Below are positions 2,618 through 39,658 of a stretch of 45,593 nt of DNA, piece after piece (positions within the stretch are counted from its first letter, which is position 1; each line of letters starts with the position of its first letter). This DNA is from Lyngbya sp. HA4199-MV5 (lineage in GTDB: Bacteria > Cyanobacteriota > Cyanobacteriia > Leptolyngbyales > Leptolyngbyaceae): assembly GCA_019359375.1 (NCBI GenBank), contig JAHHHL010000049.1, positions 1 through 45,593 on the forward strand, read 5' to 3'. The translations under genes and the position numbers were made by a program. The notes under the pieces are model-generated. The model did no database searches, had not been told where the DNA came from, and was given only the letters and a program-made list of their open reading frames with translations.

Positions 2618-4444
2618 ATGCAACGAAGGGGTTTTGGTTTTGAGTGTGGGGTTTCGCTGGTAGGCGCGATTTTTTGGTTGCTGCCAGCGCGAGTGCTTGC
2701 CACCACTGCGATCGATGCCCCAAACGCGATCGCACCCATTGAGTCCAGCAGCTTGATGGCACAGGTACAACCGCCACCCTCTGCGCCAACGCCGCCTGTA
2801 TTGCCTGATCCAAGTCAGCTCACGCCCGACCCAAACCGCGATCGCCTGATTCAGCCTGCTCCCACACCAACGCCACCTCCGGATCAGTCGCCCATCTTGC
2901 CCCCAACGCCAACGGTGCCTCCAGAAACGACACCTAGCACGCCCTCCCCTCAACTCAACGTGACTCGCATCGAGGTGACGGGCAGCACCATTTTGGGCGC
3001 GAAGGAACTTGACCCGATTACCAAGCCTCTGGAAAACCGCACGGTTACGTTAGAACAACTGCGACAGGCGGCTGATGCGATTACGCAGCTTTACCTCGAT
3101 CGGGGCTACATCACTTCACGGGCAATTCTGGCTGACCAGACCGTTACCAATGGCGTTGTGCAGATTCGCGTGGTCGAAGGGTCGCTGGAGCGCATCGACA
3201 TTGAAGGCACCCAGCGGTTGAACCCCAACTACGTGCGTAGCCGCATTCAGCTAGGAACCAAGCCACCGCTCAGCCGTGATGCGTTAGAAGACCAGTTGCG
3301 CCTGCTCAAAGCCGACCCGCTGTTTACCAACGTGGAGGCGAGTCTGCGTCCCGGCACCCAACTGGGGCAAAGCATTCTCATTGTGCGGGTGACAGAGGCA
3401 AAGGCGATCGACGGCTTGCTGCAAGCAGATAACTACTCGCCGCCGAGCGTGGGAGCCGTCCGTCTGGGTGGAGCTATCAGCTACCGCAACCTCACAGGCA
3501 TTGGTGATCAGCTTTCTGCCTCCTACTTTGGAACCACGCGCGGCGGGTCAGATGCCTTCGACTTTAACTACATTGCACCTATTAATGCGATGAATGGCAC
3601 GGTGCAGTTGCGGATTGCACCCAGCAAAAACCGCATTGTCGATCCTGATTTCGAGGTGTTTGATATTCGCGGTGAAACAACCCTCTATGAGTTGAGTTAC
3701 CGTCAGCCCTTGATTCGCACGCCGCGAGAGGAATTTGCGCTCTCAGTCGGGTTTGCCTTCCAGGATGGGCAGACCTTTCTCTTTAACGATATAGGCACCC
3801 CGTTTGGCATTGGACCGGATGCCGATGGCAACAGCAAAACGCGTGTCCTCAAGCTCGGGCAAGACTATGTGAGGCGTGATCCACAGGGAGCCTGGGCATT
3901 TCGATCGCAGTTCAATCTGGGGTTGGGCATTCTCGACGCAACTGAGAATGAGTCGCCCATACCGGATGGACGCTTCTTTAGCTGGCAGGGGCAGGCGCAA
4001 CGGGTACAGCGATTGGGCAATAGCAACCTGCTCATCGCCCAACTTGACTTGCAGCTTACACCGGATAGCCTCTTACCCTCTCAGCAGTTTGTGATTGGGG
4101 GCGGGCAATCGCTGCGGGGCTTCCGTCAAAATGCGCGTTCTGGCGATAACGGGTTTCGCTTCTCGGTGGAAGACCGCATCACATTGGGGCGCGACGAAGC
4201 TGGACTACCCACCTTCCAGCTTGCACCGTTCTTCGACATGGGCACCGTCTGGAACAAATCAAACAACCCCAACCCACTTCCAGAACAAACCTTTCTGGCT
4301 GCGATCGGCTTAGGGCTGCTCTGGCAACCGCTTCCCCGTCTCAACCTCCGGCTTGATTATGCCATACCGTTTGTGGACTTGCGCGATCGGGGCAACGATG
4401 CCCAGGATGAAGGCTTCTATTTCAGCCTCACCTATCAGTTTTGA
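2618..4444 (+). CDS. ShlB/FhaC/HecB family outer-membrane transporter (TpsB, two-partner secretion)
   Basis: This 608-residue protein should be an outer-membrane beta-barrel that exports a large partner protein, a member of the Omp85/TpsB superfamily. A signal peptide occupies residues 1-29, followed by a strongly Pro-rich linker at about 50-110. Two POTRA-like domains follow at about 113-188 and 189-258, then the barrel at 265-608. The Omp85 RGF motif is present in 'GGGQSLRGF' (R500 G501 F502), and the last residues are YFSLTYQF, with the terminal aromatic expected for barrel assembly. Length matches TpsB proteins. No TpsA-type haemagglutinin exoprotein is adjacent, so the substrate is encoded elsewhere or the protein serves another secretion role. 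Confidence 0.9.
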   Translation: MQRRGFGFECGVSLVGAIFWLLPARVLATTAIDAPNAIAPIESSSLMAQVQPPPSAPTPPVLPDPSQLTPDPNRDRLIQPAPTPTPPPDQSPILPPTPTVPPETTPSTPSPQLNVTRIEVTGSTILGAKELDPITKPLENRTVTLEQLRQAADAITQLYLDRGYITSRAILADQTVTNGVVQIRVVEGSLERIDIEGTQRLNPNYVRSRIQLGTKPPLSRDALEDQLRLLKADPLFTNVEASLRPGTQLGQSILIVRVTEAKAIDGLLQADNYSPPSVGAVRLGGAISYRNLTGIGDQLSASYFGTTRGGSDAFDFNYIAPINAMNGTVQLRIAPSKNRIVDPDFEVFDIRGETTLYELSYRQPLIRTPREEFALSVGFAFQDGQTFLFNDIGTPFGIGPDADGNSKTRVLKLGQDYVRRDPQGAWAFRSQFNLGLGILDATENESPIPDGRFFSWQGQAQRVQRLGNSNLLIAQLDLQLTPDSLLPSQQFVIGGGQSLRGFRQNARSGDNGFRFSVEDRITLGRDEAGLPTFQLAPFFDMGTVWNKSNNPNPLPEQTFLAAIGLGLLWQPLPRLNLRLDYAIPFVDLRDRGNDAQDEGFYFSLTYQF

Positions 4445-6515: not shown

Positions 6516-7214
6516 CTATCGAGTCCCACCTGTCCCTGTAGTACCACCTGTAGGGGCAACAGAGGGAGAGGTGGTAGTTCCAGGCGTAGAGGTTCCAGGT
6601 GTAGTAGTCCCAGGTGTTGTAACTGTACTCTGACCAGGAGTGGTTGTGTTCTGACCGGGTGCTGTATTCAAACCAGGCGTAGTTTGATTCGCACCCGGAG
6701 ACACCATCGTGCTACCTGGAGTCGTCGTTCTGCCTGACGTAGTAGACGTAGTGCCAGGTGTGCCATTGATGTTCGTTACACCGCCAGTATTCGTTACGCC
6801 AGTAGAAGGTGAGGTCATGCCGCCTGTATTCAAGCCGTAAGGACTGGTTGTTCCTGAGGGAGACGTTACAGATGTTCCATAGGATGGCGTAACGACACCA
6901 TAAGAACCCGTTGGCGCTGCATTGCTGCCACCAGTTGCTCCAGTAGAGGGCGTTGTCGTGCTGTTGGGCGTAGTGCCTGGTGTTGTGGTTATGCCCGTTG
7001 AAGGAGACGTGGGCGATACTCCAGTGGAGGGTGATGTGGGTGATACTCCAGTGGAGGGAACTGTCGGCGTTACCCCAGTCGTACCACTTGCTCCAGCGCC
7101 ACCAGTGCTGCCACCTACACTACTCTGAGCAGAAACCTGTGAAGCAGAGAGTGCCGCAAAGGAGGCGAATCCGATCGCCCCTGCCACGAAAGCCAAATAT
7201 CTTAGCTGTTGCAT
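6516..7214 (-). CDS. Secreted Ser/Thr/Pro/Gly-rich low-complexity protein
   Basis: The protein has 232 residues. A signal peptide (residues 1-30, likely cut after VSA) precedes a mature region made almost wholly of Thr, Ser, Pro, Gly, Val and Asn. Short repeats occur, for example three consecutive copies of a 'STGVSPTSP'-like unit near residues 48-75, and the C-terminal part is built from 'TTPG' steps. No catalytic domain is present. The composition resembles extensin- or mucin-like surface proteins and suggests an extended, possibly O-glycosylated, exported chain. It is divergently or independently expressed next to the phosphohexomutase. The family cannot be named. Confidence 0.72.
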   Translation of the reverse strand: MQQLRYLAFVAGAIGFASFAALSASQVSAQSSVGGSTGGAGASGTTGVTPTVPSTGVSPTSPSTGVSPTSPSTGITTTPGTTPNSTTTPSTGATGGSNAAPTGSYGVVTPSYGTSVTSPSGTTSPYGLNTGGMTSPSTGVTNTGGVTNINGTPGTTSTTSGRTTTPGSTMVSPGANQTTPGLNTAPGQNTTTPGQSTVTTPGTTTPGTSTPGTTTSPSVAPTGGTTGTGGTR

Positions 7215-7317
7215 CTGAGATCAATCCTCTGAGCGCTCTACATCACCAATGTAGAAACCCTCGTCTAAACTTTCCCCTACCTTTGGTCATAAGTCAGCGT
7301 TCTATCGATCACCACCA

Positions 7318-7424
7318 TTGAGCGTAGACAACCTATTCCCCACGCCCCCCACGCTTCCTCTTCTCCCTCCGCTTCCTCACACCCCACACCCCACACCCAC
7401 ACCCCACACCCCATTCCTTACCCT
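7318..7424. repeat. C-rich short tandem repeat tract
   Basis: The tract is degenerate 'cccacaccccacac' and 'cttcctcttctccctccg' repeats immediately downstream of the histidine kinase gene. It runs into the last codons of that gene at 7418. Confidence 0.6.
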
Positions 7425-8941
7425 TCATCCCGCTGCGGCAAAACCACCGTCACCGTTGTACCCTGACCCAGCGTGCTGTCGATATGGATGTGCCCCTGAT
7501 GGTTCTCCACGATCGCCCGCGCAATCGCCAACCCTAACCCTGAGCCTGCCGCAGCGGTTTGGGTGCGTGCCTGATCAACACGGTAGAAGCGATCAAACAG
7601 TCGTGGTAATGCGTCTGGTGCAATGCCAATACCTGTATCGTTTATGCTGATCTGAAGAGATGCATTGCCCGATCGCTTCGTTGGTTGAAGCTTCACCAGC
7701 ACTGTTCCCCCCGAAGGCGTGTATTGCAATGCATTTCCAACCAGATTGGTAAAGAGTCGTGCTAATTGATCGCGATCGGCGTAGAGCGTACTCCAGGTTT
7801 CTTGCGACGACAGAGTTGTGGCGATCGTCGTTGTAGTCGAAGGCGACACTCCCGTCACCCCGCTTTGGCTGGCTGCACTACTAGCGCCATTCTTAGCAAT
7901 TGGCTCTATAAGACTCAATGCGAGCTGAATGCCCTTCTCTTCGGCAAGCATTTGTTGTTCTTCCAGCACGTCTCGCAGCAAGCTATCCACGGATACATTT
8001 ACACAGCGAGCCTGCACAATGCCGCTATCCTGTCGCGCCAGAAAGAGCAGATCATCCACCAAGCGCCCCAACCGTCGCGTCAATCGCTCGACGACTTTGA
8101 GATGCTGTTGCTGCGTTTTGGGATCGGGATCAGGATCTGCCAGCGCGACCTGGACATTCGTTTGAATGATGGCGATCGGGTTACGCAATTCATGGGATGC
8201 ATCGGCGGTAAACTGCTTTAACCGTTGGTACGACTCGCTCACAGGCTCCATCGCCAGACCAGAGAGAAACCAGCCGATCGCGGCGACAGTTGCCACCATG
8301 AGTCCAATGCCCAACAAGAGATCCCACACCAATTGGCGGACAGGTTTGGTTACCTCAAACCAGGGATGGCTGACCCGCAAATAGCCCAAGACTTGCCGAC
8401 CAACTTCTATCCGCTGCGTGACTTGGCGGAGAATGAGTGAGTCGGGGGAAGCGGTTGTTGGTTGTTGGTTATTGGTTGTTAGTTGTTGGCGATCGTTGTT
8501 CTCAGCTTCCTCGCCTTCCTGCGTACCTGCTTCTCTTAAGGCTCCACCGGAACCTCTTACCATGCGAACGGTTTCACCGTTATTGTTCAGATGCAGCGGG
8601 ATTTGCAGCGGTTCCGAGAGCGTTGACCAGAGCAATTCGCCAGTGGGACTGAACCATTCCAGATCGATGTGGTCATCTTCCCCGGTTGCGGCGTTGTCCC
8701 GAAAGCTAGCTTCCACATTCACCCGGAGCGCTCCGCCTTCAGAGTGGGGATTGACGGGTTCGATGACGAGCGATCGCCCCACCACTTCCACCACATGATT
8801 CAGCGTGTCATCCATCCGCTCAATCAACGTCTCCCGCACGTAGAGATAAAAGCCCGTGGCAAACAGCAACAGCAGCACCGCTGTAACGGTAGTATACCAG
8901 AGCGCAAGCCGACGACGAGTAGTTTGAAACATAGGTCTCAA
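7418..8941 (-). CDS. Two-component sensor histidine kinase
   Basis: This 507-residue membrane kinase probably senses an extracytoplasmic signal. Membrane helices lie at about 13-34 and 204-226 and enclose a periplasmic region. The HisKA box 'ASHELRNPIAII' contains the phosphoacceptor H250. The HATPase domain shows the N box (N403), DTGIGI at 435-440 and GSGLGLA at 466-472. The architecture resembles cyanobacterial RppB/NrsS-type kinases. No response regulator is adjacent, so the partner is unlinked. Two stretches look like additions: residues 140-168, where TTNNQQPTT (155-163) is encoded by a short tandem DNA repeat, and the Ser/Thr-rich 351-380 between the HisKA and ATPase domains. The catalytic core is intact, so the kinase is probably active. 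Confidence 0.92.
   Translation of the reverse strand: MRPMFQTTRRRLALWYTTVTAVLLLLFATGFYLYVRETLIERMDDTLNHVVEVVGRSLVIEPVNPHSEGGALRVNVEASFRDNAATGEDDHIDLEWFSPTGELLWSTLSEPLQIPLHLNNNGETVRMVRGSGGALREAGTQEGEEAENNDRQQLTTNNQQPTTASPDSLILRQVTQRIEVGRQVLGYLRVSHPWFEVTKPVRQLVWDLLLGIGLMVATVAAIGWFLSGLAMEPVSESYQRLKQFTADASHELRNPIAIIQTNVQVALADPDPDPKTQQQHLKVVERLTRRLGRLVDDLLFLARQDSGIVQARCVNVSVDSLLRDVLEEQQMLAEEKGIQLALSLIEPIAKNGASSAASQSGVTGVSPSTTTTIATTLSSQETWSTLYADRDQLARLFTNLVGNALQYTPSGGTVLVKLQPTKRSGNASLQISINDTGIGIAPDALPRLFDRFYRVDQARTQTAAAGSGLGLAIARAIVENHQGHIHIDSTLGQGTTVTVVLPQRDEG
8453..8490. repeat. 'gttgttggtta' short tandem repeat inside the histidine kinase gene
   Basis: This is a run of degenerate ggttgttggttgtta units read in frame as the Gln/Asn/Thr stretch of the kinase sensor region. 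The same repeat, read on the other strand, lies in rlmN at about 19837-19870 and between genes at 43969-44093. Confidence 0.7.
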
Positions 8942-14592: not shown

Positions 14593-14919
14593 TTGAGAGA
14601 GCCTCTGAGAATGTTAGGAGGCTTGCTGAGAGTGTTGAAAGAGCCTTCGAGAGTGTCTAGAGAAGCTCTGAGAGTGTCGAAAGAGTCTGCGGAAGGTGTT
14701 GAAAGAGCCTCTGGAAGTGTCTAGAGACTTGCTGAGAATGTCGAAAGAGCTTTGGGAAGTGTTTAAAGAGGCTCTGAGAGTGTCGAAAGAGGTTGTTGAA
14801 AGTATCGAAAGAGTCTCTGGAAGTGTCTAGAGAAGCCCTGAGAATGTCTAGAGAGCTTCTGGAGAGTGTCTAGAGAGTCTCTGAGAATGTCTGGAGAACC
14901 TCTGAGAGTGTCTAAAGAG
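14593..14919. repeat. About 15 tandem copies of a degenerate 21-bp unit
   Basis: The unit is roughly agagcctctgagagtgtctag, and nearly every copy is exactly 21 bp; a few have 22. Variation is concentrated in the middle (cctctg, gctctg, cttgct) and the end (ctag, cgaa, ttaa). The period is two DNA helical turns or seven codons, but stop codons recur in the frames I inspected, so it does not encode a long protein. It lies in an 816-bp gene-free stretch between GH15 and a minus-strand membrane protein. The function is unknown; candidates are a protein-binding array, a curved region or a simple minisatellite. Confidence 0.85.
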
Positions 14920-15000
14920 TAATGACACTGAAGTAAGCGCTTACCAATGGCTGAAAGCGTTGATCAACCCTACTCAAAGGCTGAAAGCATTGATCGCTCT

Positions 15001-15043: not shown

Positions 15044-15109
15044 CCCCTCATTTATCCGGATTCTCCCCGCAGGCTGGGAACAATAGAGTGGTAGATGCAC
15101 CCTGATAAT

Positions 15110-15140
15110 AGCCCCCGGCGCTTGTCGTCGGGGCTTTTTC
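15110..15140 (+). terminator. Strong intrinsic terminator without an obvious upstream gene
   Basis: The left arm agcccccggcg (15110-15120) pairs with cgtcggggct (15126-15135) around a cttgt loop, leaving one bulged C and one G-T pair. A run of five Ts follows. The T tract is on the plus-strand side only. The neighbouring genes on both sides are on the minus strand, so this may end a small RNA transcribed from within about 14930-15110. Confidence 0.7.
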
Positions 15141-15237
15141 TTTGGGAGGGGCGATCGACAATGCGTAGCAAATAAAGACCTAATAAGCAAGATTTGACCT
15201 TCTGCCCTCTGCCTTCTGCCTTCAAAATGGCTCCGTT

Positions 15238-33402: not shown

Positions 33403-34080
33403 ATGCTTGATGAAGCTCAATCTCAAAGTCCCGCATCCAACCTCCCTCCTCTACGCATTCTCATTGTTGAAGATGACCCAATGATGCAGCTAGGCTTGGA
33501 GCAATGCCTGGAAGATTACCCCCAACTCACCGTAGTAGGGCAGGCAAGCGATGGCTACTTGGGCGTAGAGGCTGCGTTGAAGCTAAAGCCTGATGTCATT
33601 GTGATGGATATTGGGCTACCGCGTCTGGATGGGATTGCCGCAACGCAACAGATCAAAGCGGCGTTACCGTCTGTGCATGTGGTGATGCTCACCTCACACA
33701 CCACAGAGACCGAAGTGATTGCGGCTTTATCCAGCGGTGCCGATGCCTATTGCATTAAAGGCACAAATATTGAGCGGCTGCTGGCTGCGATCGCAGCGGC
33801 TCAAGAAGGTGCTACCTATCTCGATCCACAAATTGCCCGTCGCGTCATCGAACATCTCAAACCACCGACCCCCGCCGGCAACATTGGTCACTTGTCTAAT
33901 CGAGAGCAGGAGGTACTTCAGCTCATGGTCGAAGGGCGTAGTAACCCTGAGATTGCAGCGGTGTTGTACCTCAGCCCTAACACCGTCAAAACTCACATTC
34001 GCGGCATTATGAACAAACTTGCAGTCGACGATCGCGTGCAGGCAGCCGTAGTCGCCCTGCGTTCAGGCTTAGTTAAATAG
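33403..34080 (+). CDS. NarL/FixJ-family DNA-binding response regulator
   Basis: This 225-residue transcription factor has a receiver domain (about 17-135) with the acidic pair ED at 23-24 and the phosphoacceptor D69 in 'VIVMDIGLPRLDG'. T/S and K of the switch are visible in 'VVMLTSHT' and 'AYCIKGT'. The LuxR-type helix-turn-helix is at about 160-222 ('LSNREQEVLQLMVEGRSNPEIA', 'LSPNTVKTHIRGIMNKL'). No kinase is adjacent; the unpaired histidine kinase at 7.4 kb is too distant and of the OmpR-partner type to be an obvious mate. The duplicated 16-mer upstream might be an autoregulatory site. Confidence 0.94.
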   Translation: MLDEAQSQSPASNLPPLRILIVEDDPMMQLGLEQCLEDYPQLTVVGQASDGYLGVEAALKLKPDVIVMDIGLPRLDGIAATQQIKAALPSVHVVMLTSHTTETEVIAALSSGADAYCIKGTNIERLLAAIAAAQEGATYLDPQIARRVIEHLKPPTPAGNIGHLSNREQEVLQLMVEGRSNPEIAAVLYLSPNTVKTHIRGIMNKLAVDDRVQAAVVALRSGLVK

Positions 34081-34170
34081 AGGATGGATTCGCAGCGCAA
34101 AATCTCTTGTCCAAGATGGTTGCTTTTCCTAAGCTCGGCTTTAGCCATTTGGAGGCATAGGACAAGGCAT

Positions 34171-34212
34171 AGAAAAATGAGGTGAGCGGAACAAAGTCCA
34201 TCTCACCTTTGA
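34171..34212 (-). terminator. Possible terminator of the universal-stress gene
   Basis: A 7-bp stem AGGTGAG/CTCACCT with a 15-nt loop (34180-34208) is followed on the minus strand by CATTTTTC. It lies about 110-140 bp beyond the stop at 34317, between two convergent genes. Confidence 0.4.
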
Positions 34213-34316
34213 AAAGTTGCGTTTACGATACCAGAACCCACTGCGGTAATCTTGAGTTGCTTTTGGACTCTTCTCCTCTCGCCTTTGGCAACATGTCTTA
34301 TATGTCAACAGAGTCG

Positions 34317-35003
34317 CTAGCTGCTAGGCGTTGTGGGTGGAATGCCGAGAATAGCGCAGGGAAACTCTGTCTTTAACTGCTGCACGAGTGGGTGCGCGAC
34401 TGAATCACAACCCAGCAGCAACAACGCTGCCGATTCTGCTTGCGACACATGCTGCAATTCTGTAGCGACCTGCCCAAAGCGGAGATGGGTTTTAAGCGAA
34501 CCGCGCCATTCGTCTGCCAGATGACGCGCTTGCCAAAGAATGAGGTCTGCCTGGTCAAATTGGTTTAGCTGACAGGCAGCGGCTCGTAGAGGAGGCTCGG
34601 CTACGGCACTACTGGAGCGATACCCCCCCTCAAGCGGACGAGAATCATGGTCGATCGACGCACGATAAGGGCGCTGGTCAAATGCTCGTTGGTCATAGCC
34701 CCACGGAGTTGTAAACTGGTGTGGCAAAGATGTAACAGGCAGGCAGTCGTTCACCGTATCCAGGACATAGACGACTTGAACCGTCACCTGCTTACCGGTT
34801 GCCAACCGCGTCTGATGAGCAATCCACAACGTCAAATCCAAAGCTGTTTGGCTACAAGGTGAGCCATTGTAGCCAACCAAAAGGTTGATCTCTTTAGCTG
34901 AGCATGGCTCTTGTGGCTTGGGCGGCACCAAAACCATTTGCTTGGCGAGATCAGCACGACCCAGCGCGTCTTGAAGACGTGCAAGCGTTGATAGAATATT
35001 CAC
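34317..35003 (-). CDS. Universal stress protein (UspA-like) family protein
   Basis: This 228-residue protein has the UspA-type Rossmann-like fold: 'INLLVGYNGSPCSQTALDLTLWIA' at about 38-61, a long variable middle, and 'LLLLGCDSVAHPLVQQL' with 'PCAILGIPP' at the end. The classical ATP-binding G-2x-G-9x-G(S/T) is not clearly present, so nucleotide binding is uncertain. A leading segment of about 35 residues precedes the fold. The gene is preceded by a long leader that contains a probable cyclic-di-AMP riboswitch, tying it to potassium, osmotic or dark/stress signalling. Confidence 0.8.
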   Translation of the reverse strand: MNILSTLARLQDALGRADLAKQMVLVPPKPQEPCSAKEINLLVGYNGSPCSQTALDLTLWIAHQTRLATGKQVTVQVVYVLDTVNDCLPVTSLPHQFTTPWGYDQRAFDQRPYRASIDHDSRPLEGGYRSSSAVAEPPLRAAACQLNQFDQADLILWQARHLADEWRGSLKTHLRFGQVATELQHVSQAESAALLLLGCDSVAHPLVQQLKTEFPCAILGIPPTTPSS

Positions 35004-35130
35004 GTTGAACCTCTCAAAAATAGACTGTACGAGAGGTGGGTCAGTAACAGATACACAACCGATGTTAAGCGGTAAACATACCCGTTAGGAGACTCCAATA
35101 ACCATAGCTTTTGAGGCAATAGTTTTGGGT

Positions 35131-35252
35131 GACTCCTCCCATTGCCGACGGAGTTAGCTGACGGGCTAAGACTGGAAGGTGTCTCTCTCAACTGAGATTA
35201 GCCCCGAATGGTTGGTTCCTCCGCTTGAGTTGAAGCGTGATCAGGACTCCCT
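35131..35252 (-). promoter_or_regulatory. Cyclic-di-AMP (ydaO/yuaA-type) riboswitch
   Basis: Read on the minus strand, the leader contains the conserved blocks of the ydaO/yuaA RNA in order: a CGCTTcaactcAAGCG hairpin (35222-35237) followed by GAGGAACCAA, then GGGGCTAATC, then GAGACACCTTCC, then CCGTCAGCTAACTCCGTCGG (35145-35164) followed by CAATGGGAGGAG. GGGGCTAA (35198-35205) can pair with TTAGCCC (35163-35169). The aptamer's 3' end is about 127 nt before the coding start at 35003. I see no T-rich terminator in between, so the expression platform may act on translation or on processing. Recognition is by eye, without a covariance model. Confidence 0.85.
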
Positions 35253-35539
35253 TACCTGAAATCAACTCACATTAGGCTACCCACTTGTTGGATGATTGAC
35301 GAACCTATCCCCTGACAGACCGATCACCGAAGAGCAATACGATGCGCGATGAAGCCAACTTAAGCCATCTTAATCGGTTTAAACTGCTATCTCTAAAACA
35401 TTAAGTAAAACATCTTGTACTGATCGAAACGGAAATCATCCTTAGCCAATATAGCCCACTGCGCTTAAATTGATATCTTCCCTTAGAGAGTTTAACGATA
35501 TGTTTACCGTACTATCGCATGTCCTGGTTAAGTGAGGCT

Positions 35540-35667
35540 GGTTAAGTGAGGTGCGATCGCGAAAAGGCAGAAGGCAGAGGGCGGAAGTGGAGCGAACAAC
35601 GGGTTTCCTTCTGCCTCCTGCCGTTGCCTCAAAGGCAAACGCTCGTACCGCACTTAGATGAAAAGCC
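35540..35667. repeat. Hairpin repeat element, copy 2
   Basis: It shares with copy 1 (27756-27859) the left flank aagtgaggtgcg, the core ggtttccttctgcctcctgcc, and the right part caaacgct-gtaccgca-ttaga-gaaaa. An extra insertion lies in the left arm, and an additional 'ggttaagtgagg' half-copy is just upstream. It lies in the leader of the helicase gene. Confidence 0.65.
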
Positions 35668-35806
35668 ACAAGACGCGATCGCCTCAAAACGTGACGGAGA
35701 GAGCCAGTCCAAAAATCAAGCTATATGATGAATGGAACGATCGCGTGAGTTGATCGAGTACGCGACGTTGATTGCTCCGTCTCCATCATAGGTAGGATTT
35801 TTGGGC

Positions 35807-38521
35807 GTGACTGTTTCCCCTTTAGCGTCAGGGCTAGACCTGAAGACTCTCTTTCCCTTCGAGTTGGATGGGTTTCAACAGCAAGCGATCGCAGCTTTAG
35901 AAGCGGGTCGATCGGTCGTTGTGTGTGCCCCTACAGGTTCAGGTAAAACGCTCATTGGGGAATATGCCATCTATAGGGCGCTCAAGCGTGGCAAACGGGT
36001 GTTTTACACCACCCCCCTCAAAGCGTTATCAAACCAGAAACTGCGCGACTTTCGAGCACTCTTTGGCAACGATCAGGTGGGTCTGCTCACAGGGGATATA
36101 TCAGTCAATCGAGATGCACCCATTCTGGTGATGACCACCGAAATCTTTCGTAACATGCTCTACGGTACGCCGATCGGCGAAGTCGGCACGTCGCTTACGG
36201 GCGTTGAAGCGGTGGTACTGGATGAATGCCACTATATGAACGATCGTCAACGTGGCACCGTTTGGGAAGAATCGATCATCTACTGTCCACCCGAAATCCA
36301 GCTTGTGGCGCTCTCTGCCACCGTTGCCAACAGCGATCAGCTCACAGATTGGATTCATCAAGTCCACGGACCGACTGACCTGATTTACTCCGATTTTCGC
36401 CCCGTCCCCTTAGAGTTTCACTTCTGCAACCCCAAAGGACTGTTCCCCTTACTCGACGACAGCCAAAAACGGATCAATCCTCGGCTCAAGCTCAAAGGTG
36501 GTAAAGGTGCTCCAGGCGGCAACAAGCGAGGACCACGCCAGGAAAGCCCCAATCTAGCCTTCGTGCTGAGCCAGTTGCGGCAGAAGGATATGCTGCCCGC
36601 CATCTACTTCATTTTTAGTCGGCGAGGTTGTGACCAGGCAGTCGCCACCGTAAGCGATGCCTCACTATCGATGGTCAACGAAGCCGAAGCCGCTCAACTG
36701 CGCGCCCAGGTGGATGCATTTCTGGCGCAAAACCCAGAAGCGGGACGGGCAGGACAGATCGAACCGTTGTACCAAGGGATTGCCGCACATCACGCGGGCA
36801 TTTTACCTGCCTGGAAGGGGCTGGTCGAAGAACTCTTTCAGCAGGGTCTGATCAAGGTGGTGTTTGCCACTGAAACGCTGGCAGCCGGAATTAATATGCC
36901 TGCCCGCACAACGGTGATTTCGAGCCTGTCGAAGCGGACAGATCTGGGGCATCGCTTGCTGAACGCCTCGGAATTTTTGCAGATGGCAGGACGGGCAGGA
37001 CGGCGCGGGATGGATAGTCAGGGGCATGTAGTGACGGTACAAACACCCTTTGAAGGCGCACGAGAAGCGGCGTATCTAACCACTGTCGGGGCCGATCCAC
37101 TGGTGAGCCAGTTTACGCCCAGCTATGGCATGGTGCTGAACCTGCTGCAAACCCATACGCTAGAAGAAGCGAAAGAGCTGGTGGAACGCAGCTTTGGGCA
37201 GTACCTCTCGACGCTGTACCTACGTCCCCAGCAAGAGGCGATCGCCCATCTCGAAGCCGAACTTGCCCAACTGCGAGCGCAACTGGGCGGCGTAGACTGG
37301 AATCTGCTGGCACAGTATGAAAAGCTGCAAGAGCGACTAAAGGAAGAACGTCGTTTGCTCAAAATTCTGCAAGACCAGGCAGCGGAAGTGCAGGCGAGTG
37401 ATCTGCCTGTCGCTTTGTCGTTTGCGATCGCGGGTACCGTCCTCAGCCTCAAAGGTGCCAATGTTCCCGTCGCCCAGCCTTTACCCGCTGCCCTGGTGAT
37501 GAAGATTCCCGGTGCAGGGCAGTTTCCCTACCTGATTTGCGTTGGGCAAGACAACCGCTGGTATGTGGTGACGGTTAAAGATGTCGTGGGTCTGCGGGGC
37601 GAAATTCCCCGGCTCAGCGGGGTGGATCATCTCACGCCTCCACCCGAAATGCCGCTCAAGCCAGGGCAGATGAAGTCAGGAGATGAAATGACAGCGGCGA
37701 TCGCCCGTCAAATTCCTGCTGTGCCATCCCCGATCGACGAAGCACCCGAAGTGTATGAGCAGCTTCAGCGGATGGAAGGCGTACAGCAGCAGCTTGAAGC
37801 CCATCCCGTCAACCGCTGGGGCAATCGCACCACCATTCTCAAGCGCCAAAGACGCATCACAGCCGTGCAGATTGAGCTTGCCGATCGTCAGGCAAAGCTC
37901 GATCGAGAGTCACAGTGGCGCTGGGATGTTTTTCTCAGCCTAATCGAAACCCTACAACATTTTGATAGTCTCGAAGGCTTGCTACCCACTCCGTTAGGGC
38001 AAGCAACTGCTGCAATTCGAGGTGACAACGAATTGTGGCTCGGCTTGGCACTGATGTCTGGAGAACTCGACCATCTCGATCCACACCATCTGGCAACCGC
38101 CTGCGCCGCTCTTGTCACTGAAGTTTCGCGACCCGATAGCTGGACGCACTACGACCTTTCTGGTGAAGTAGAAGAAGCGCTTGGAGGATTGCGGGGCATT
38201 CGTCGCCTCTTGTTTCAGATCCAGCGAAAGCAACAGCATAAGTTGAAAGAGAAACATCCGAATCAAGTCTTTGAAATGCCACCTGTATGGCTAGAGTATG
38301 AGATGGTTAGTCTCGTAGAGCAGTGGGCGTTGGGCATTGAATGGGCAGAACTTTGTAGCAACACCAGCTTGGATGAAGGTGACGTGGTGCGTATTCTCCG
38401 CCGCACGCTCGATTTTCTCTCGCAAATTCCGCATGTGCCCCATGCGTCAAACGAGCTGAAAACTACGGCAAACCAAGCTATTCGATTGATCGATCGCTTC
38501 CCGGTAAAAGAGGGTGTGTAG
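35807..38521 (+). CDS. Ski2-like DEAD/DEAH-box RNA helicase
   Basis: This 904-residue superfamily-2 helicase is probably involved in RNA turnover or maturation. Motif I APTGSGKT is near residue 41-48, motif II DECH in 'VVLDECHYMND', motif III 'LSATVANSDQL', and the C-terminal motifs 'FATETLAAGINMPA' and 'QMAGRAGRRGMD' are typical of the Ski2/Mtr4 branch. The second half has a long helical region ('LEAELAQLRAQL') and the DSHCT-like C-terminal domain. The GTG at 35807 is chosen because AGGA sits 9 nt upstream; a TTG at 35801 is the alternative. The stop is followed within 2 bp by a mobile element. Confidence 0.93.
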   Translation: MTVSPLASGLDLKTLFPFELDGFQQQAIAALEAGRSVVVCAPTGSGKTLIGEYAIYRALKRGKRVFYTTPLKALSNQKLRDFRALFGNDQVGLLTGDISVNRDAPILVMTTEIFRNMLYGTPIGEVGTSLTGVEAVVLDECHYMNDRQRGTVWEESIIYCPPEIQLVALSATVANSDQLTDWIHQVHGPTDLIYSDFRPVPLEFHFCNPKGLFPLLDDSQKRINPRLKLKGGKGAPGGNKRGPRQESPNLAFVLSQLRQKDMLPAIYFIFSRRGCDQAVATVSDASLSMVNEAEAAQLRAQVDAFLAQNPEAGRAGQIEPLYQGIAAHHAGILPAWKGLVEELFQQGLIKVVFATETLAAGINMPARTTVISSLSKRTDLGHRLLNASEFLQMAGRAGRRGMDSQGHVVTVQTPFEGAREAAYLTTVGADPLVSQFTPSYGMVLNLLQTHTLEEAKELVERSFGQYLSTLYLRPQQEAIAHLEAELAQLRAQLGGVDWNLLAQYEKLQERLKEERRLLKILQDQAAEVQASDLPVALSFAIAGTVLSLKGANVPVAQPLPAALVMKIPGAGQFPYLICVGQDNRWYVVTVKDVVGLRGEIPRLSGVDHLTPPPEMPLKPGQMKSGDEMTAAIARQIPAVPSPIDEAPEVYEQLQRMEGVQQQLEAHPVNRWGNRTTILKRQRRITAVQIELADRQAKLDRESQWRWDVFLSLIETLQHFDSLEGLLPTPLGQATAAIRGDNELWLGLALMSGELDHLDPHHLATACAALVTEVSRPDSWTHYDLSGEVEEALGGLRGIRRLLFQIQRKQQHKLKEKHPNQVFEMPPVWLEYEMVSLVEQWALGIEWAELCSNTSLDEGDVVRILRRTLDFLSQIPHVPHASNELKTTANQAIRLIDRFPVKEGV

Positions 38522-38659: not shown

Positions 38660-39658
38660 CTAATCCTCTTCTAAGCCACCAATCACCCGGTTTCGTCCAG
38701 CAGCTTTAGCCTTCAAAAGATTCTGGTCAGCACGTTGCAGCAGGCTGGCTCCCTTCGGATCGTCGCTGTCGTTCAGGGAAGCTGCTCCTGCGCTGATGGT
38801 CATGTCGAGATTAAGGGCTTCGTCGATCGCAAACGTTTGGTCGCTGATCAGACGACAGAGACGGCGACCGACTAGCAAAGCTTCTGGCTCATCGGTATTG
38901 CTCAGCAGAATGACAAATTCTTCGCCCCCATAACGAAATAGAGTGTCTCGAAAGCGGAGATTGTGCCGCAGCCGACCAGCAATCAGTTGGAGTGCCCGAT
39001 CGCCAATGGGGTGTCCGTAGGTATCGTTGATGTTTTTGAAGTAATCAACATCCAGCATCAACACGCTCATTTGCTCCGAGCGCGAACGGGAATTTTGCAC
39101 CTGGCGAGGCAGTTCCCAGTCAAGGGCACGACGGTTATTGAGTTCCGTGAGTGGGTCTGACAGCGCGATCGCCGATAGAATATCGTTCGTCCGCATGAGT
39201 TCACGGTGATTCTTGACAGTCCGTAGTCCAGAGGCAATTTGCGCACTCAGCAGACGGTCTTGCTGCATCACCACATCCAGATCGAGCGCTTCACCTTTGG
39301 CATCCTGCTTGGGAAACCACAGATAAGCATCAGCACCGCTCTCTAGCGAATCGGCTCGGCTCTCCATTTCCCAAAAGCGATCGCGCCACACCTCTCCCAA
39401 GGCATGGGTGGGATAGTCCAACAGCAAGCAATAGATCCAGGCAAGACGCGTTTGCTCTTTAATTTGGCGGCAGAGTTCTAGGCTACCCGGTTGATTCCCT
39501 TGAAGGATGACCAGATCTGGCTGCTGTGCCTGAACCAGCGGCATGGCTTCGCTCGGATTCGTTGCCACTTCCACAGTGCAACTCACCAAGTTACGGATAC
39601 GAACCAGAAGTGTTGCTAGAAAGTCATCACCTCCGACTAACAGAATCGAAGCGTCCAT
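38660..39658 (-). CDS. GGDEF-domain diguanylate cyclase with a receiver-like N-terminus
   Basis: This 332-residue protein probably makes cyclic-di-GMP. The C-terminal GGDEF domain (about 160-325) has the intact active site GGEEF in 'FRYGGEEFVILL' and the inhibitory I-site RFRD five residues before it. The N-terminal 130 residues look like a receiver domain, but the usual phosphoacceptor Asp position reads Q in 'LVILQGNQPG', so it is likely a pseudo-receiver. No kinase or EAL gene is adjacent. The gene is monocistronic and has an inverted repeat about 120 bp upstream. Confidence 0.93.
   Translation of the reverse strand: MDASILLVGGDDFLATLLVRIRNLVSCTVEVATNPSEAMPLVQAQQPDLVILQGNQPGSLELCRQIKEQTRLAWIYCLLLDYPTHALGEVWRDRFWEMESRADSLESGADAYLWFPKQDAKGEALDLDVVMQQDRLLSAQIASGLRTVKNHRELMRTNDILSAIALSDPLTELNNRRALDWELPRQVQNSRSRSEQMSVLMLDVDYFKNINDTYGHPIGDRALQLIAGRLRHNLRFRDTLFRYGGEEFVILLSNTDEPEALLVGRRLCRLISDQTFAIDEALNLDMTISAGAASLNDSDDPKGASLLQRADQNLLKAKAAGRNRVIGGLEED

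Follow-up and report, generated by a model that had tools for sequence, protein, structure and literature searches.

We asked whether a riboswitch of the cyclic-di-AMP (c-di-AMP) class controls a universal stress protein-like (Usp-like) gene in a cyanobacterium and, if it does, by what means its signal would be read out. In the literature passages searched, the class is described as acting on genes for K+ and osmolyte transport and for the cell wall (PMC3766115, PMC7288161, PMC6488665), with one regulon study naming transporters and cell-wall enzymes as the targets of ydaO (PMC3766115). The window, a 45,593-nucleotide contig of Lyngbya sp. HA4199-MV5 (JAHHHL010000049.1), carries a first-pass annotation that placed a ydaO/yuaA aptamer on the minus strand and proposed a search with the RF00379 covariance model. 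That search did not return a low score. Specifically, RF00379 (c-di-AMP/ydaO) matches 35247-35131 on the minus strand over all 134 model positions with 55.4 bits, well over the gathering score of 38 (E 2.8e-10 over the 45.6-kb window and E 3.4e-12 over a 551-base stretch), and it is the sole family found at E<=1 by covariance-model search of 34950-35500. The aptamer motifs that the annotation had named, CCGTCAGCTAACTCCGTCGG and GGGGCTAA/TTAGCCC, are present in the leader. It is very probable that a genuine c-di-AMP-class riboswitch lies ahead of this small, stress-protein-like cyanobacterial gene, an assignment on which the covariance model, conserved synteny and the one diadenylate cyclase domain encoded in the same genome agree. 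Judged from the sequence, we consider it highly probable that the riboswitch acts on the gene at 34317-35003.

The 5' edge of the aptamer had to be redrawn. The first-pass annotation had set it at 35252, which is too short, and the Rfam edge at 35247 is too short as well; the leaders of relatives place the true edge at about 35277-35284. The P1 5' strand lies 30 nt 5' of the Rfam boundary because an arm of variable length, TGAGTTGA...TCAACTCA (P2), comes after P1. These boundaries come from an alignment (A1) of 58 of the 63 leaders that share the window's 5' element (type A, see below), which leaves out one leader missed by the start-codon rule although it holds the same elements (G004) and four in which the rule-derived start looked wrong or distant (G166, G131, G188 and G153). 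P1 is paired as GCC:GGC or its equivalent in 58/58 aligned leaders, two of which have the compensatory GCT:AGC. The P2 arm exhibits both-side changes at all 8 of its pairs with only 52.6% of cells pairing, a low value that we attribute to the varying arm length. The window copy has the columns that are invariant across A1, and its score is among the lower ones of the 107 RF00379 matches found in 97 genomes, which is probably due in part to misplacement of the 5' edge by the Rfam model.

Table 1. Features of the riboswitch leader and its gene (window coordinates)
Feature	Coordinates	Strand	Basis or remark
RF00379 c-di-AMP aptamer as placed by Rfam	35131..35247	-	55.4 bits, gathering score 38
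Proposed closing helix P0, 5' strand GTGGGT	35279..35284	-	Type-A element; directly 5' of P1
P1, 5' strand GCC	35275..35277	-	Pairs with 35144-35146; beyond the Rfam and first-pass boundaries
Aptamer arm P2	35226..35269	-	8 bp in the window; incompletely modelled by the Rfam alignment
P1, 3' strand GGC	35144..35146	-	Pairs with 35277-35275
Conserved post-aptamer hairpin AGGAG...GTCTCCT	35087..35137	-	Also in the minimum free energy (MFE) fold of the window leader
Proposed P0, 3' strand ACCCAC	35036..35041	-	Complementary to GTGGGT 35284-35279; immediately precedes the sequestering strand
CCTCTC, strand pairing with the ribosome-binding site	35031..35036	-	SD hairpin conservation
GAGAGG, ribosome-binding site (SD) within hairpin	35010..35015	-	6 nt before the GTG start
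Usp-like protein, 228 aa, GTG start	34317..35003	-	PF00582 and predicted fold

The position and minus strand of the gene were correctly given in the first-pass annotation, as was the 127-nt distance from the aptamer to the GTG start on the same strand. The gene stands alone, with both neighbors (33403-34080 and 35801-38521) on the other strand. Its Usp-like label is upheld by a PF00582 profile match of 23.6 bits (E 8.1e-05), just below the Pfam cut-off of 24, together with the predicted fold; a relative of the protein in a transporter locus (L126) scores 40.0 bits, over the cut-off. The closest named relatives are from Stenomitos rutilans (80% identity), Tildeniella nuda and Stenomitos frigidus. 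A search of NCBIfam gave no match to the window protein at E 1, and a sequence-profile search gave no solved relative at E 0.1. An AlphaFold2 model built from 47 sequences has a pLDDT of 78.6, with low values across residues 91-129 (below 50 at 91-93 and 97-129). Foldseek comparison of this model with the PDB returned 23 matches at E<=0.001, the best of which are universal stress proteins (TM-scores by target 0.30-0.70). Fifteen of the 23 are named universal stress or USP-like, three are Rv2623 (so named in 2jax) and five are otherwise named, among them 2z08, which is called a Usp in the part of PMC8214093 that was available. The protein is thus predicted to have the Usp fold.

We also considered two ligands for the protein itself, guided by the motifs that the same passages of PMC8214093 give for the c-di-AMP site of KdpD-type Usp domains, (A/G/C)XSXSX2N(Y/F), and for the ATP site of Usp proteins, G-X2-G-X9-G-(S/T). 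By eye in a protein alignment (A2), the KdpD motif does not occur at the matching place, which reads VGYNGSPCSQ, and the ATP motif is not seen after G198; the protein was therefore rejected as a candidate binder of either ligand on these motifs. The USP domain of KdpD with c-di-AMP (PDB 7ji4) shares the Usp fold with the window protein at Foldseek rank 32.

The association of this riboswitch with a Usp-like gene is widely conserved. Among 97 whole genomes, including that of the window, 63 have an RF00379 match and 55 a match to the Usp-like protein. For 46 of the 55, RF00379 also hits the same strand no more than 1.5 kb upstream of the Usp-like match, and 39 of those 46 hits sit 100-180 nt from where the protein match begins. 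Clustering of the first long ORF downstream of every one of the 107 RF00379 matches showed the Usp-like protein as the commonest target (46), ahead of an NtrB-like permease (41), followed by 11 membrane proteins of ~445 aa, which we take to be of the slr0753 type, and 8 singletons, with one match having no ORF. Because these clusters depend on that first long ORF, a small number of the singletons may in truth belong to the larger clusters but be frame-shifted or read in the wrong frame. In a broader set of 291 genomes drawn from the class, RF00379 is present in at least 156 and the Usp-like protein in at least 108. From this set 60 of the 63 Usp loci outside the first set were fetched (G281, G183 and G260 were left out), and an aptamer core, called by motif within 1.3 kb upstream and not by Infernal, is present in 44 and absent in 16. 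First set and further loci together give 90/115 with an aptamer, by two different criteria. The fair tallies are 46/55 genomes and 44/60 loci, since in the pool of 106 leaders used below the 46 linked ones were picked for an upstream RF00379 match and all 16 coreless leaders fall among the 60 further ones.

Nine of the 55 genomes have no RF00379 match directly upstream of the Usp-like gene. In three of them (G067, G082 and G089) this gene lies within or behind a transporter operon, and in five (G017, G020, G029, G037 and G058) none of the searched motifs occurs in the 480 nt upstream, save GAGAGG in G017. In the ninth (G012, locus L119) the aptamer core motifs are absent from the 480 nt upstream, with GTGGGTC and GACCCACCTCTC...GAGAGGT retained; this leader is perhaps a riboswitch caught in decay. 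A separate observation concerns family f24 (L139, L140, L146, L149, L152 and others), in which ~400-1000 nt separate the aptamer core from the Usp start, suggesting an intervening small ORF or second element.

We then considered how the leader might act. The first-pass annotation had seen no obvious terminator between aptamer and start and had suggested that the mechanism may be unusual. The first statement holds, as the four sites given by a terminator scan of 34050-35800 all lie outside the leader, whichever strand is considered; a simple sigma-70-like promoter scan of the same region found no promoter. The second statement holds in part. The leader has a visible hairpin at the ribosome-binding site, and such a hairpin is an ordinary kind of riboswitch output; what is distinctive is a proposed long closing helix, P0. 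The SD hairpin CCTCTC:GAGAGG is paired in 97.6% of cells in the 58 leaders, with none of 2000 shuffles pairing as well, and C-G is replaced by U-A in 11 sequences, which may represent a single event since all 11 belong to family f32. RNAfold predicts the ribosome-binding site to be 2% unpaired in the window leader. The post-aptamer hairpin is paired in 80.6% of cells, with both-side changes at 7 of its 14 pairs. A GGGAGG stretch after the aptamer was tried as a competitor of the SD hairpin and was rejected by eye, as the pairing is broken by GGAAGG variants that keep CCTCTC.

P0 would join the 5' end of the leader to the stretch directly before the sequestering strand. Its 5' element, GTGGGT or a near variant before P1, defines the type-A leaders and occurs in 63 of 90 Usp leaders with an aptamer core, the window included. 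At least 5 contiguous base pairs can form in 57/58 leaders as compared with 31% of shuffled 5' flanks, and at least 6 in 44/58 as compared with 10.5%; when the alignment is left unshifted, pairing is seen in 85.6% of cells. A permutation test in which the hexamers were anchored individually detected no covariation beyond conserved complementarity (326/348 cells versus a shuffled mean of 325.7). A clean compensation is seen in a single sequence, G015 (GTGGGC:GCCCAC); changes on the 3' side mostly retain G-U pairs, and family f32 leans on G-U pairs in this helix. A local partner for GTGGGT, (T)ACCCA after the aptamer, was also tried. It gives at least 6 bp in 32/58 leaders versus 37% of shuffles and at least 5 bp in 50/58 versus 71%, and its CCC core is missing in sub-clade g6. 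The distal ACCCAC is preferred over this local partner because of its 44/58 versus 10.5% of shuffles. From these patterns of complementarity P0 is likely to be a real helix.

Folding predictions agree with such an arrangement in the window leader. In the unconstrained RNAfold structure (-87.9 kcal/mol), P0 adjoins the SD hairpin end to end, with probabilities of 0.81 and 0.88, respectively, and these are 0.86 and 0.87 when P1 and two more aptamer helices are imposed. Over the 58 leaders the mean P0 probability goes from 0.32 to 0.50 under the imposed aptamer fold (up in 46, down in 5 and the same to two decimals in 7), a rise that may partly be a trivial effect of closing P1. The mean unpaired probability of the ribosome-binding site stays at 0.12 whether or not the aptamer is constrained, and the window leader has a value of 0.02. 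Predicted access to the site is therefore equal in both fold states, and folding alone shows no switch.

Taken together, we regard the leader 35284-35004 as a probable c-di-AMP riboswitch controlling translation of the Usp-like protein, with a platform that is likely to be translational as read from the conserved hairpin and helix. In the proposed mechanism, ligand binding would stabilize P1, the stabilized P1 would favor the adjoining P0, and P0 would stack end to end on the SD hairpin and lock it, such that high c-di-AMP leads to less Usp synthesis. We lean toward this OFF polarity since P0 would contribute a further helix stacked on the sequestering hairpin. A second reason is that, in the passages seen of PMC7288161, c-di-AMP riboswitches are described as controlling Bacillus subtilis kimA and ktrAB negatively. 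The opposite outcome, in which the same riboswitch and platform turn translation ON with ligand, is unlikely. Here the 6-bp P0, including its last C, would rob the sequestering strand of its first base or bases and weaken the SD hairpin. In type-A leaders these two helices can overlap by one to three nucleotides; moreover, imposing the aptamer raises P0 and lowers the SD hairpin in G028, G103, G180 and G262. The window leader itself does not behave in this way, as its two helices lie end to end and are both kept with and without the constraint, and the negative control of kimA and ktrAB also speaks against an ON switch.

Action at the level of transcription would make the SD hairpin secondary to Rho-dependent or non-canonical termination, or to RNA stability. 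There is precedent in that the Bacillus thuringiensis kdp c-di-AMP riboswitch is described as transcriptional in the available part of PMC6488665, but the absence of a terminator-like site from both strands of the leader and the presence of a conserved and compensated SD hairpin, which termination control would not need, make this reading rather improbable for the window gene. Much less probable still is that the aptamer is decaying or binds another ligand in this lineage, with the gene no longer under c-di-AMP. The window score near the low end of relatives' matches would fit such decay, and the G012 leader shows that GTGGGT and the SD hairpin can be kept where the core motifs are gone. Yet the invariant columns of A1 are intact in the window copy, the genome encodes a diadenylate cyclase domain, and the low score probably stems in part from the misplaced Rfam edge. 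We thus retain the translational OFF switch as the preferred reading.

The riboswitch-Usp pair is tied to transport more strongly than the first-pass annotation had it, through an NtrABCD-like gene cluster under the same riboswitch class. NtrABCD/CmpABCD-type transporter leaders belong to RF00379 as well, and in other genomes this transporter is the gene-cluster partner of the Usp-like gene. An RF00379 match lies 3.5-6.0 kb upstream on the same strand in at least 16 of the 63 further Usp loci, among the matches listed. In these 16 loci, which were chosen for that match and are not a random sample, the order behind the riboswitch is permease, binding protein, ATPase and Usp-like gene on one strand in 16/16, and a second aptamer core is present between the ATPase and the Usp-like gene in 12/16; in two of them (L258 and L269) the 5' riboswitch was missed by motif and found as an RF00379 match. 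The order in L126 (G082) is riboswitch, permease, binding protein, Usp and ATPase. There the permease scores 237.6 for ntrB and the ATPase 353.2 for ntrCD, over the NCBIfam nitrate-transporter cut-offs of 209.05 and 291.8, respectively, and the binding protein belongs to PF13379, with NrtC/CmpC chains and then NrtA and CmpA as the closest PDB entries. At another transporter cluster (L127) we observed a second, canonical Usp gene at 3020-3559 (PF00582 100.6 bits) directly behind the Usp-like gene.

The genome of the window has a second RF00379 match (G000:C86:150085-150276), and it heads an NtrABCD-like transporter operon without a Usp gene (L125). The window gene therefore looks like a detached regulon member, that is, the detached partner of a nitrate-type transporter with the same riboswitch class. 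Judged from gene order, the Usp-like protein would work with the NtrABCD-like ABC transporter, perhaps as a regulator or assembly partner. A comparable case is TeaD, the Usp of the TRAP transporter TeaABC in Halomonas elongata, which has a role in regulating transport; it shares the Usp fold (Foldseek rank 4) and likewise goes with a solute transporter, although the partner here is an ABC transporter and TeaD is only 12% identical to the window protein. As a separate observation, the NtrB-like permease of L125 (8126-8973, contig C86) is split into two overlapping ORFs of 142 and 145 aa. The ORF for the binding protein (6655-7902) is also shorter than that of relatives; both would be frameshifts or assembly errors.

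The two leader types differ in their flanks. In permease leaders P1 is preceded by a stretch that contains GTC, often as AGTCA, and the aptamer is directly followed by GACTG or a similar sequence (30/41 each by loose patterns), in contrast to the GTGGGT and distal ACCCAC of the Usp type. The P1 flank thus seems to pair locally in permease leaders and distally in the Usp type. Permease leaders also show a CTCAG...CTGAG hairpin pattern in 15/41 cases versus 4.15 expected from shuffles.

Elsewhere in the window, a match to NsiR1 (nitrogen stress-induced RNA 1, RF02399) lies at 15089-15141 on the plus strand with 50.2 bits versus a threshold of 39, between a GH15/KPBB_C gene and an amine oxidase gene. 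NsiR1 is typical of heterocyst-forming species, and a copy in a Leptolyngbya-like genome would be noteworthy. Upstream of this match, a 57-nt unit recurs four times within 14701-14927 as degenerate direct copies at spacings of 42/64/64. A GGDEF protein with a diguanylate cyclase domain is encoded at 38660-39658 on the minus strand, two genes from the c-di-AMP riboswitch.

As a member of RF00379 the window leader is ordinary, having the core sequence blocks, P1 and arms of the class. It is notable in its Usp-like target, in its regulon and in a platform that joins the SD hairpin to a proposed long-range helix with the stretch 5' of P1, with no terminator-like site. Nelson 2013, by the account in the passages seen of PMC5986932, connected riboswitches of the class with osmoprotectants in cyanobacteria, and one has been said to be verified for Synechocystis slr0753, a putative chloride efflux transporter (PMC10117731, seen in part), which is likewise cyanobacterial but belongs to a gene family other than that of the Usp target. 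The literature passages searched, whose scope did not extend to the target lists of Nelson 2013 and Block 2010, make no mention of a Usp target. The target is conserved and little described, and target and platform are new as far as that literature goes.

A tentative extension is that a cyanobacterial c-di-AMP regulon might pair an NtrABCD-like uptake system with a Usp protein dedicated to it, each under its own riboswitch. The translational switch of the Usp copy would then read the ligand via a helix that joins the mRNA 5' end to the SD hairpin, and the Usp, by analogy with TeaD, could serve the transporter as a regulatory subunit whose synthesis is set by the second messenger. The control of cyanobacterial gene expression by c-di-AMP is barely mapped, with slr0753 the one verified riboswitch target named in the part of PMC10117731 that was seen. 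Given the prevalence of the two leading targets, a test of one example each of the Usp and permease types would bear on most of the class in the 97 genomes, and an uncharacterized Usp-like family gains a likely partner and signal.
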